Positions 8,102 through 13,080 of a stretch of 25,407 bases of DNA are shown in pieces (position 1 is the stretch's first letter; the number at the start of each line of letters is the position of its first letter). Below the pieces are notes generated by a model that did no database searches, was not told where the DNA came from, and saw nothing but the letters and a program-made list of their open reading frames with translations. The position numbers were made by a program, and so were the translations under genes. The stretch is from a virus, in IMG/VR virus record IMGVR_UViG_3300037450_000087, positions 1-25,407 of that record; one strand, given 5' to 3'.

Positions 8102-8296
8102 TTATCGTTTCTTCCCTAAAGATCGTTTCAAAGCGTCTTCAACACGGTAATTCTTACCTGCCCGCTTAGGCTTTGATTTAACTGGTGTTTTCGCCTTCGG
8201 CTTGGGTGTCCTGCCTACTGGCATATCAACACCCATGGCTTTCATGAGCCTGGCAGTAGAAGGGTTAACCTTCCGCTTTCTTGATACTTTCGGCAT
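8102..8296 (-). CDS. Small highly basic hypothetical protein
   Basis: 64 residues, mostly Lys, Arg and Pro (PVGRTPKPKAKTPVKSKPKR). It starts at the ATG at 8296 with a strong AAAGGAGG site, and overlaps the preceding gene by 32 bases. It ends just before the AT-rich promoter-like gap. Its charge suggests nucleic acid binding, but no family is recognised. It is the last gene of the accessory block before packaging genes. Confidence 0.6.
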   Translation of the reverse strand: MPKVSRKRKVNPSTARLMKAMGVDMPVGRTPKPKAKTPVKSKPKRAGKNYRVEDALKRSLGKKR

Positions 8297-8507
8297 TTTC
8301 TGCCTCCTTTAACAAATCTTTCAGCCTATTCCCGATGACGTCCTCGTATACCTGAACAGGCCCGGTAACCGGAGTTCCTGAGCCCTCTGAAGAAGGCGCA
8401 AACCTCCCTATCCTGGCTTTTGCCTCAGTCTTCAGAATATCCTGTGGTCTGGACAGCGCAGCTTTCAGGATCTCCTCTCGTGCTTTCTTGATACTTCCGG
8501 CATTCAT
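8265..8507 (-). CDS. Hypothetical charged protein
   Basis: 80 residues from the ATG at 8507, chosen because GGGAG lies just upstream while the longer frame has none. The sequence has a Lys/Glu/Ala helix at each end (KKAREEILKAAL; RLKDLLKEAENAESIKKAE) and a Ser/Gly/Pro/Thr linker in the middle. It overlaps the nuclease gene by 83 bases and the next basic gene by 32. Similar two-helix proteins sit before terminase genes in other phages; the role is unknown. Confidence 0.55.
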   Translation of the reverse strand: MNAGSIKKAREEILKAALSRPQDILKTEAKARIGRFAPSSEGSGTPVTGPVQVYEDVIGNRLKDLLKEAENAESIKKAEG

Positions 8508-8865
8508 GTCTATCTCCCAATAACGCCAATGCATCTTCCACACTGCGCACGATACCCGCCACGCACCCATTCTTAACCGCATCCTCTATAAACCGCGCCT
8601 GAGCCTCTGTGGGCTTACCCAGGCGGCGCTTAACCTCCAACCCTATAAACCGCCCGTCTACAGTGAAACCGAGTATATCGGGTGTTCCAGGAGGGCATGA
8701 TCTGAAGAAGTCCCGTTTACCGCCAGCCCTATCGAGGTGAAACGCCCCGGTATTCTGCCGCCATGCTGTAGCTACCATGGGATGATAGGTAAGCGCCTGC
8801 AGGATAGACGCCTGTATTTGCGCCTCGCTAGGCTCTTGCATTCTTAGCTTGAATCGGGCTGCCAT
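8425..8865 (-). CDS. VRR-NUC family nuclease
   Basis: 146 residues. A PD-(D/E)xK-fold nuclease of the VRR-NUC type, a family linked to structure-specific (Holliday-junction or flap) cleavage in phages and in FAN1. Visible motifs are SEAQIQ near residues 13-18, RQNTGAF near 36-42, PPGTPDILGF near 58-67 with the catalytic Asp, GLEVKRRLGK near 75-84 (E-x-K) and TEAQ near 86-89. The tail past residue 118 overlaps the next gene and is probably not part of the fold. The start may instead be the Met at 8841; neither has a clear ribosome site. It probably resolves branched DNA before packaging. Confidence 0.85.
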   Translation of the reverse strand: MAARFKLRMQEPSEAQIQASILQALTYHPMVATAWRQNTGAFHLDRAGGKRDFFRSCPPGTPDILGFTVDGRFIGLEVKRRLGKPTEAQARFIEDAVKNGCVAGIVRSVEDALALLGDRHECRKYQESTRGDPESCAVQTTGYSED

Positions 8866-9118
8866 ACAGCCAAGTATCGCGCAACCTCACATAATTTTCA
8901 TCTATGTGCTTGTTCAGGTATCGGGCAATCCACTTTTTAGGCCCAACCAGTACATTCTTGCGGTCCCTGGCGTACCATTCCACGCCGACACTATGCCCGC
9001 CGGCGCTATAGATATTCGATATCCAGTATGGCCCATTGTTCTTATAGTCCTTCTCATATCTAAGGGATATCTCGAGCCCCTTCCAGGTCAGGACCTCTAG
9101 CGGTTCTTTTTTCATCAT
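8828..9118 (-). CDS. Hypothetical protein with MKKEPL start
   Basis: 96 residues from the ATG at 9118, which makes an ATGA overlap with the stop of the hook-domain gene. Not recognised. It has a beta-rich middle (WKGLEISLRY…GPYWISNIYSAGG) and a basic region KKWIARYLNKHIDENYVRLRD. Its first residues (MMKKEPLEV) resemble those of the upstream gene (MKKKEPLNE), sharing 15 identical bases. It overlaps the nuclease gene start by up to 38 bases. Confidence 0.6.
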   Translation of the reverse strand: MMKKEPLEVLTWKGLEISLRYEKDYKNNGPYWISNIYSAGGHSVGVEWYARDRKNVLVGPKKWIARYLNKHIDENYVRLRDTWLYGSPIQAKNARA

Positions 9119-9651
9119 TTCGTAATGTGCTTCACAGCCCACATTACCGCCTCTTCCATCTTGGTTTTGGCCAACGATAATTCCCTGGAATCTCCAATCA
9201 TTGATATAGCGCCAACAAATGCCAAACCAATGTCCTTGATCTCTTTCATTGTGGCCTTTTCTTCTTCTGTCAGCACCCGGTATTCGTGGCGCATTACGTT
9301 GTTGTCAATCCTACTGTCGTCTGTTGAGTCCATTGTACTTTCCTCTAGTTTGAATAAAATAGGTTTACTAGGCCAGATATCCCCTGCTTCATATGCCCAG
9401 AACCGGCCCTTATCATCTCTATTAGTCCTGGCTATACCGCATGATCCCGCTTCAATAGCCTTAAAAAATGTTCTGTCCTTAGGTGCGTAGATCGAATTTC
9501 CCCAGCCTAAGTCTTCTAATCTTTTGACCCCTTCAAATATCTGCATAATTGCGTCTTTCTCTTCTGGCATTTTTAATGCCCGCTCGCTCTCCTTTCTCCG
9601 GATCTCTTGAAATATCTTTTGCGCTTCATTTAGCGGTTCTTTTTTCTTCAT
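9115..9651 (-). CDS. DUF551-like domain fused to Acb2/Tad1-like hook domain; candidate anti-CBASS/anti-Thoeris sponge
   Basis: 178 residues in three parts. Residues 1-45 form a charged helix. Residues 50-103 (GWGNSIYAPKDRTFFKAIEAG … WAYEAGDIWPSKP) resemble the small DUF551-type phage domain. Residues 115-178 carry RHEYRVLTEEEKATMKEIKD and RELSLAKTKMEEAVMWAVKH, the layout of the Acb2/Tad1 hook. Proteins of that fold sequester cyclic nucleotide or cyclic ADP-ribose signals used by CBASS and Thoeris defences; activity here is inferred. The start is an ATGA overlap with the gene upstream. An internal ATG at 9333 with AGAGGA seven bases before it could yield the hook alone (72 residues). Confidence 0.68.
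   Translation of the reverse strand: MKKKEPLNEAQKIFQEIRRKESERALKMPEEKDAIMQIFEGVKRLEDLGWGNSIYAPKDRTFFKAIEAGSCGIARTNRDDKGRFWAYEAGDIWPSKPILFKLEESTMDSTDDSRIDNNVMRHEYRVLTEEEKATMKEIKDIGLAFVGAISMIGDSRELSLAKTKMEEAVMWAVKHITK
9331..9346 (-). promoter_or_regulatory. Internal ribosome-binding site and start within hook-domain gene
   Basis: On the minus strand AGAGGA (9346-9341) lies seven bases before an in-frame ATG (9333-9331). Initiation there would give a separate hook domain, close in size to free-standing Acb2 proteins. Confidence 0.5.
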
Positions 9652-9974
9652 TGGAATATGCCCGTTTCCCGTAGTTCCTCTATAGTTTTCTGTGGATTGG
9701 CTAGCTTGTCGATTAATAGGTCAAGATCGGCATCTTCGGTTGCTGCTGTACATAGCTTTTTAAGGCGCGCAAGTCTCTCCTTTTCGTCATAACCAAATTC
9801 GTCCCGGAAAAGTGCATGCAATTCACATTCCATCTGACTAGCCAGTGAAATAGCTTCCATGAACGAGCGCATCAATTCATAGATAACCTGTTTTGGCTCC
9901 AGATGGTCCCTGCTGGTATCAATGGCCGCCATGAACAGCGCCAATGATGTCGGTGCCCCCCTGAAATCAATCAT
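9648..9974 (-). CDS. Hypothetical protein
   Basis: 108 residues from the ATG at 9974, preferred over an ATG at 10019 because GGGGAAG lies six bases upstream and the previous gene stops one base earlier. The sequence starts MIDFRGAPTSLALFMAAID and is mostly helical, with one HALFRDEFGYDEKERLARL segment. Not recognised. It ends in an ATGA overlap with the hook-domain gene, so the two are probably made together. Confidence 0.6.
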   Translation of the reverse strand: MIDFRGAPTSLALFMAAIDTSRDHLEPKQVIYELMRSFMEAISLASQMECELHALFRDEFGYDEKERLARLKKLCTAATEDADLDLLIDKLANPQKTIEELRETGIFQ

Positions 9975-9975
9975 C

Positions 9976-10281
9976 TTAGTCTTCCCCGTTGAGGTGCCTA
10001 TTATGTGTTTTTTCACCATTGGTAACCGCCTCTTTAATCATCTGCAGGTCAGCAATATAGCCATGGCCGTACTTATCCTTGAGATAGCGCAGCCTGGCCT
10101 GTCGATCGAGTGGCAGCATAGCAAGCAGGGACTTGACCTCTGCATACCTGGCCAGCGTCTCTTTCTCTGAGTGGAAATCACGCCAGCCGAACTCTCGCCG
10201 TATATCATCCATAGTCTTGTCCGGGAATTGAGTGCGCTGGGCCATCAGCACATCACGCCAGTCAGGTGGTTTTAGTTTCAT
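9976..10281 (-). CDS. Hypothetical protein
   Basis: 101 residues from the Met at 10281. It is rich in Arg, Lys and Asp, with WRDVLMAQRTQFPDKTMDDI near the start and a helical LARYAEVKSLLAMLPLDRQARL middle. The residue pattern suggests a small helical, soluble protein. No family is recognised. The first codons overlap the upstream Cys-rich gene by 20 bases, and the next gene follows after one base. Confidence 0.55.
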   Translation of the reverse strand: MKLKPPDWRDVLMAQRTQFPDKTMDDIRREFGWRDFHSEKETLARYAEVKSLLAMLPLDRQARLRYLKDKYGHGYIADLQMIKEAVTNGEKTHNRHLNGED

Positions 10282-10591: not shown

Positions 10592-11074
10592 TTATTGGCG
10601 GGTACGGCTCAGCCTGGTGCGCACATCATCCCAGGATTCGCCCGGTCGGGCTGCTTTGGCTAACTCTGACTGACTGAAGACGGGGTTTTTTTGGTTTTTG
10701 ATATCTGTGATATCCCTTTTTTTCTTCCCATTGGTATGAAATACCTTGGTATGACTTCTATTGTCAGTGGCCCTACTGACAGTTTGGAAGAAATGAGAGA
10801 GCTTCGTACCTGGCCTGTACCGGTTCGCCAGTAAGCGATTGGTTTCCTTGTCAGTCCTGGTCTCGCGTATCAGCCAACCCTCAGACTCCAGCCAGTTCAG
10901 CCAGCGGAATATAGTCCGGTTACAGCACTTGGCCAGCCGGGCTAATCGTTTGGAACAGGGCCGCATCTCACCTTTCTTGGGTCGGTAGTGGCTGAATATG
11001 GCCAGCATGATTGCCTGAGCCATCGGCGGGAGGTCTTGTTCCATGATTAGCGTAGAGGTATTCAGACGTGCCAT
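10592..11074 (-). CDS. Winged-helix (HTH) DNA-binding protein; replication initiator or regulator
   Basis: 160 residues. The N-terminal 90 residues carry a winged-HTH: MAQAIMLAIFSHYRPKKGE, then CSKRLARLAKCCNRTIFRWL (turn and recognition helix) and LESEGWLIRETR (wing). This arrangement is common in phage O-type replication initiators and HTH_36 regulators. The C-terminal half is basic and probably disordered, ending SWDDVRTRLSR. AAGGGG is seven bases before the ATG. It follows the promoter at 11166-11194 and lies 31 bases upstream of another promoter. Either function fits; I cannot choose. Confidence 0.68.
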   Translation of the reverse strand: MARLNTSTLIMEQDLPPMAQAIMLAIFSHYRPKKGEMRPCSKRLARLAKCCNRTIFRWLNWLESEGWLIRETRTDKETNRLLANRYRPGTKLSHFFQTVSRATDNRSHTKVFHTNGKKKRDITDIKNQKNPVFSQSELAKAARPGESWDDVRTRLSRTRQ

Positions 11075-12533: not shown

Positions 12534-12688
12534 TTCATTCGCTCCTGTCTTCGCCTGGCCCAAGCTGCCCGCTTACGCGCTACGTAGCGCCTGACAGCCT
12601 CAGCCTCTCCAGCCGGTACCCATAACTGCATGAGTACATGGCCCGTATCTTTCATTTTCTGCTTCCACCTGTCTGATGGTGATTTCAT
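12530..12688 (-). CDS. 52-residue basic protein, possible ribbon-helix-helix-like regulator
   Basis: Begins at 12688 in an ATGA overlap with the pentapeptide gene and ends in an ATGA overlap with the next. It holds a strand-like [20 protein letters not shown] followed by a very basic helix ([16 protein letters not shown]). A short strand then helix is reminiscent of Arc/MetJ ribbon-helix-helix repressors, but the second helix is not clear. It could bind the divergent promoters nearby. Not seen as an independent frame without checking for short genes. Confidence 0.5.
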
Positions 12689-13020
12689 TGTTTGATTTCC
12701 TTACGTTGTTTATCGCACATGTATACATATTTCATATTCACCCCGCTGAGGTTCGCCCCGCTGAGGTCCGCCACCCTGAGGTTCGCCTCGCAAAGGTCCG
12801 CCTTGCTGAGGTTCGCCCCGCTGAGGTCCGCCCCGCGAAAGTTCGCCCCGCTGAGGTTCGCCCCGCTGAGGTCCGCCCCGCGAAAGTTCGCCCCGCTGAG
12901 GTTCGCCCCGCAAAGGTCCGCCCCGCTGAGGTTCGCCCCGCAAAGGTTCGCCCCGCGTAGGCTATCAGTGTCAACCTGCTTTAATATCTCTCCCGTGTCT
13001 TTGTGTTTTATCTCGATCAC
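12685..13020 (-). CDS. Pentapeptide-repeat protein
   Basis: 111 residues from a GTG at 13020 (GGAGA nine bases upstream), with the opening [20 protein letters not shown] seen in other phage and bacterial pentapeptide proteins. Residues 24-93 are 14 consecutive A[ND][LF]xx repeats, a right-handed quadrilateral beta helix. Some relatives (MfpA, Qnr, AlbG) mimic DNA and bind gyrase; others have unknown roles, so gyrase interaction here is a hypothesis. It has several Cys residues in the x positions. First gene of the minus early/accessory transcript, right after the promoter at 13052-13080. Confidence 0.85.
12742..12951. repeat. 15-bp tandem repeats encoding pentapeptide repeats
   Basis: Fourteen degenerate 15-bp units encode A[ND][LF]xx. 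The unit length keeps all frames open, so several spurious frames appear here on both strands. Near-identity of units suggests recent expansion by slippage or recombination. Confidence 0.8.
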
Positions 13021-13039
13021 TTTATTTTCTCCAGTGGTA

Positions 13040-13068
13040 TTGACATGAGTAATGTTATGCCATAGTAT
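13040..13068 (+). promoter_or_regulatory. Plus-strand sigma70-like promoter of SSB/exonuclease genes
   Basis: TTGACA (13040-13045), exact 17-base spacer, TAGTAT (13063-13068). The −10 context matches the promoter at 10533-10561. Transcription would start near 13075 and reach the SSB-like gene about 90 bases later. Confidence 0.6.
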
Positions 13069-13080
13069 TGAAACTGTCAA
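13052..13080 (-). promoter_or_regulatory. Minus-strand sigma70-like promoter of pentapeptide/accessory genes
   Basis: TTGACA (13080-13075), exact 17-base spacer, TAACAT (13057-13052). It overlaps the plus promoter face to face: each start lies in the other's −35. Its transcript would enter the pentapeptide gene about 25 bases later. Confidence 0.55.

Follow-up and report, generated by a model that had tools for sequence, protein, structure and literature searches.

The Acb2/Tad1 sponges are a common means of counter-defence, and most of those described are either small proteins of a single domain or Tad1 (Thoeris anti-defence 1). Among the single-domain forms, the Acb2 (anti-CBASS 2) of phage T4 loses binding upon the mutation Y8A (PMC12657218, PMC12657230). 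The N-terminal domain of Tad1 is a four-stranded beta-sheet (PMC12043709). In a different functional setting, certain phage endolysins are made as two polypeptides from one gene by means of an in-frame internal start, with a shared C-terminal domain and the formation of hetero-oligomers, as shown experimentally (PMC9430671, PMC12203907).

Here we describe a phage gene whose 178-aa product carries an Acb2/Tad1-type hairpin behind an N-terminal part of no known family. Our preferred reading, to which we give a probability of roughly 0.6, is that it encodes a sponge of this family that arose when a stand-alone hairpin gene, retaining its start codon and possibly also a ribosome-binding site, became fused to an in-frame ORF of 106 codons lying upstream.

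The locus and its gene neighbourhood

The window (the whole stretch of DNA analysed here, 25,407 bases of a viral record) encodes SU10-type portal and major capsid proteins. By sequence, the virus is thus a phage with an SU10-type portal and capsid, to which HTVC010P-like Pelagibacter phages are nearest as judged by the terminase (about 52% identity). The fusion ORF sits in a series of small minus-strand genes flanked by replication-initiation-like and VRR-NUC-like genes (Table 1). Both of its junctions with neighbouring genes take the form ATGA, its ATG overlapping the upstream gene's stop codon and its TGA the start of the downstream one. The original prediction had this ORF and its length right but omitted the strand. 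A search with PADLOC gave zero matches. Elsewhere in the window, the minus strand encodes a pentapeptide-repeat-like protein (12685-13080) with a GANLSGADL pattern, the coding sequence of which is a 15-nt tandem array (repeats at 12741-12956).

Table 1. Coordinates of the fusion gene, its parts and surroundings in the window, and of loci with the KxVxAxKI/SPA module
Feature	Position	Strand	Basis or remark
178-aa fusion ORF	9115..9651, stop codon included	-	ORF list; positive coding score along the frame
N-terminal part, residues 1-106, without known family	9334..9651	-	coding in frame; no relatives found
Acb2/Tad1 hairpin domain PF24729, residues 124-178	9118..9282	-	Pfam profile; six-frame search, 68.5 bits
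Possible 72-aa hairpin-only product from internal ATG	9115..9333	-	located where stand-alone relatives start
AGAGGA, possible internal ribosome-binding site	9341..9346	-	7 nt before the ATG at 9333
Upstream neighbour, 123 aa, without family	9648..10019	-	stop overlaps the ATG of the fusion ORF
Downstream neighbour, 96 aa, without family	8828..9118	-	ATG overlaps the stop of the fusion ORF
Replication-initiation-like gene	10592-11074		one border of the run of small genes
VRR-NUC-like gene	8425-8865		other border of the run; terminase next
22-nt direct repeat, start-junction copy	9631..9652	.	over the ATGA overlap with the upstream gene
22-nt direct repeat, end-junction copy	9098..9119	.	over the ATGA overlap with the downstream gene
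KxVxAxKI/SPA module loci	L129:2114-2716; L166:734-1411; L167:695-1291; L168:686-1561; L169:713-1279		

The C-terminal hairpin domain

When searched against the whole protein, the Pfam model PF24729 (Acb2_Tad1_hairpin) matched its C-terminal residues with an E-value of 2.7e-18 and a score of 66.3 bits, well above the cut-off of 27 bits for this model; the 72-aa product of the internal start alone scored 69 bits. The stretch HEYRVLTEEEK begins at residue 122, and RELSLAKTKMEEAVMW lies close to the C-terminus, as had been noticed previously. AlphaFold2 modelling, performed for the whole protein and also for the 72-aa form by itself, predicted helices at residues 129-152 and 156-177 with pLDDT values of about 98, yielding two long antiparallel helices in the arrangement seen in Acb2. 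In Foldseek searches with the 72-aa form, T4 Vs.4 and the Pseudomonas phage Acb2 ranked at the top with probabilities of up to 1.00 (1.00 for the Acb2 structure 8h2x_E, with an rmsd of 1.4 A), and the top seven matches in a library of viral structures were all named Acb2/Tad1 hairpin proteins. Since the E-values of the PDB matches are weak (0.1-0.6) and the VIA Z-scores (6.8-7.3) are middling values that are usual for helical hairpins and do not separate them, the fold backs the profile match and is not by itself proof of family membership.

A profile built from the relatives described below in turn matched Acb2 homolog 43, Vs.4, p26 and Tad1 in the PDB. Across 71 aligned sequences, residues Y124, K139 and R156 are invariant and align with Y11, K26 and R67 of the p26 Acb2, which we take to be its contacts to cyclic di- and trinucleotides. 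The assignment to the sponge family, as originally predicted, therefore holds on three concordant grounds, namely the profile match, the predicted Acb2-like hairpin and the invariance of the binding-site positions. Judged by sequence and structure modelling, the protein is a true member of the Acb2/Tad1 family, albeit with an unusual architecture, and by analogy with the family it probably soaks up alarm molecules of bacterial defence. The hairpin probably assembles like other Acb2 proteins, which form hexamers, and would sequester the cyclic di- and/or trinucleotides of CBASS-type defences.

Relatives and their N-terminal extensions

Viral and genome scans recovered 35, 80 and 26 loci which, together with two annotated phages, gave 101 distinct sequences. 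Nearly all of these relatives are stand-alone hairpin genes. One such gene, in Sinorhizobium phage Aussie (L038, 3025-3261), has the head-to-tail adaptor gene on one side and the head-to-tail stopper gene on the other, a setting among structural genes that is unexpected for an anti-defence gene. The only clear coding N-terminal extension among the 101 relatives is that of L129, from a Paraglaciecola metagenome-assembled genome, and it is a different domain from that in the window. Long open frames upstream of L082, L098, L110 and others were considered as further fusions and rejected, because their codon-position composition is not coding-like, unlike that of L129.

The extension of L129 is shared with gp16 of Caulobacter phage Jess A: in both, an N-terminal module of the form KxVxAxKI...GGYxVxYEDGYxSYSPAxxFExGY precedes the hairpin. 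A Punavirus and Klebsiella phage SopranoGao have the same module, for which Pfam has no model, ahead of Tad2-like domains; in Klebsiella phage LASTA it stands before a crAss001_48 domain, and elsewhere it occurs by itself. It is common in viral contigs, with 477 relatives. The fusion of another domain to a sponge is thus a recurring theme. The module is shuffled between the unrelated sponge folds of the Acb2/Tad1 hairpin and Tad2, could mark more counter-defence proteins and could serve in a search for further domains of this kind.

In-frame fusion and the proposed internal start

The frame of the ORF has the top codon score at each step up to and through the junction between the two parts, with no indication of a frame change. 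Further, the N-terminal segment scores 0.11 in this frame, against -0.31 +/- 0.14 (maximum -0.01) for out-of-frame segments. Because its score exceeds those of all out-of-frame segments, the N-terminal segment is to be regarded as coding in the same frame as the hairpin. The claim of a fusion is thus borne out by coding potential in a single unbroken frame: at the sequence level the fusion is real, though the combination of this N-terminal part with the hairpin was seen once, in one contig.

The original prediction further proposed a second start, and the AGAGGA does lie seven bases 5' of the in-frame ATG at 9333, which would give a product of 72 residues. The duplex of this element with the anti-Shine-Dalgarno has an energy of -6.0, a value equalled or bettered by 8 of the 17 assigned starts and by 12% of the 171 in-frame internal ATGs in the genes of this phage. 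Given how common such elements are at internal ATGs, the Shine-Dalgarno is weak evidence when taken alone, and we rejected it as stand-alone proof of a second product. Comparison with the relatives is more telling. In 99 of the 101, a start codon lies at most 34 residues before the RHxY motif, and in 14 one lies at exactly the distance found in the window; the start region of L052, for example, reads MDSTSDERIVNNVMRHEYRVL against MDSTDDSRIDNNVMRHEYRVL in the window. As the relatives begin at or near its position, the simplest reading of the ATG at 9333 is that the stand-alone ancestor of the fusion began there. Unlike the strength of its Shine-Dalgarno, its placement at the starts of the relatives is beyond chance by these sequence comparisons. 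What survives of the proposed internal start is therefore its position as an ancestral gene start, whereas its Shine-Dalgarno does not by itself rise above chance.

Under the preferred reading of a fused gene that kept the old start, translation of the 178-aa form would be coupled to the upstream gene via the ATGA, and the same gene may also yield the original 72-aa sponge if both starts are used; from the sequence, two products are plausible. A second reading, which we regard as possible but hold more tentatively, is that the 178-aa fusion is the sole product, with the internal ATG a mere relic and the N-terminal part integral to the sponge, as is that of Tad1. The coupling of the main ATG to the upstream stop fits such a reading, as does the tolerance of N-terminal domains by the hairpins of Tad1 (with its beta-sheet), L129 and Jess A; the intact internal ATG and its moderate Shine-Dalgarno, placed where the relatives start, argue against it. 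An unlikely third reading holds that the working product is the 72-aa sponge and the fusion is functionless, the N-terminal 106 codons being a neighbouring gene that lost its stop through a recent mutation or a sequence error. Consistent with this are the predominance of stand-alone genes among the relatives, the single occurrence of the architecture and a TAG in the +1 frame that borders the AGAGGA, as if an upstream gene had formerly ended there; however, the codon scores favour the frame of the ORF at every step through the junction.

The N-terminal part

Residues 1-106 gave no significant match among Pfam (E up to 10), PHROG or NCBIfam models and none beyond chance among solved structures, and no relatives of them were found in viral contigs, genome contigs, phages, plasmids and 398 genomes of one phylum. 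The sole match with an E-value below 0.01 (L149, E 0.006) was rejected as a chance hit, because it contains an internal stop and neighbours histidyl-tRNA-synthetase-like and IspG-like ORFs. In the structural model, helices at residues 7-27 and 29-47 are confidently predicted, and residues 50-107 are of low confidence for want of relatives. The stretch GRFWAYEAGDIWPSKP was likened to the GGYxVxYEDGYxSYSPA part of the module described above; it ranked 449 of 2001 when compared along with 2000 shuffles, and hhalign gave a probability of 0.4%. The likeness was thus rejected, and by these sequence comparisons the N-terminal region of the window's protein is not a member of the KxVxAxKI/SPA module.

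The DUF551 identity originally predicted for the N-terminal half is very improbable, since PF04448 has no match in the window at E-values up to 10, though the identical search does detect DUF551 genes in E. coli and elsewhere; what counted for this identity was APKDRT...GRFWAYEAGDIWP, which bears a loose resemblance to the APKDGT motif of certain small phage proteins.

One speculative and rather doubtful extension of the preferred reading is that the 178-aa fused sponge and the bare 72-aa hairpin are both made and co-assemble, the N-terminal part, as a new family, adding to an Acb2-type oligomer a second activity, such as the binding of a further ligand or partner or a particular location. If the preferred reading is true, a stand-alone gene that acquired a new N-terminal domain and yet retained its former start would illustrate how domains are added to sponges, and might supply a natural mixed oligomer.

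Direct repeats at the gene borders

The ATGA junctions at the two ends of the fusion gene are each covered by one copy of a 22-nt direct repeat, the copies being identical at 21 of 22 positions. A second direct repeat, of 23 nt (22/23 identical), is present at 8275-8297 and 8482-8504; this pair is associated with another small gene, 0.6 kb away, one copy being close to its end and the other to its likely start. Besides the tandem array at 12.7-12.9 kb, these two pairs are the only direct repeats in the window that qualify at a length of at least 18 nt with one mismatch allowed and the copies within 3 kb, and 100 Markov controls contained no direct repeats of at least 20 nt. Recombination between the copies of the 22-nt repeat would excise the gene and leave its neighbours rejoined by an intact ATGA, so that the gene has the look of a cassette. 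The sequence therefore suggests that the fusion gene is a cassette flanked by these repeats; a search with the two neighbouring genes found no contig with the empty site.

Comparison with known systems

Acb2 (PF24729; T4 Vs.4 and the Pseudomonas phage p26) resembles the C-terminal part of the window's protein in hairpin profile, predicted fold and the invariant residues aligned with Y11, K26 and R67. It differs in being a single domain of about 90 aa, whereas the window's protein has a 106-aa N-terminal part ahead of the hairpin. Tad1 shares the layout of a C-terminal hairpin behind an N-terminal domain, and its RE..A...EEA.MW helix matches; however, its N-terminal domain shows no sequence match to residues 1-106, where the window's model has its low-confidence stretch (50-107). 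Tad1 was rejected as the nearest relative, the alignment being limited to residues 137-178, which are part of the hairpin. L129 and gp16 of Jess A have, like the window's protein, an N-terminal extension on a PF24729 hairpin, but the module differs. Finally, the two-product phage endolysin genes provide a precedent for the dual-start mechanism: they encode unrelated proteins, and the window's gene, in which the second start is only proposed, would resemble them if that start is used.
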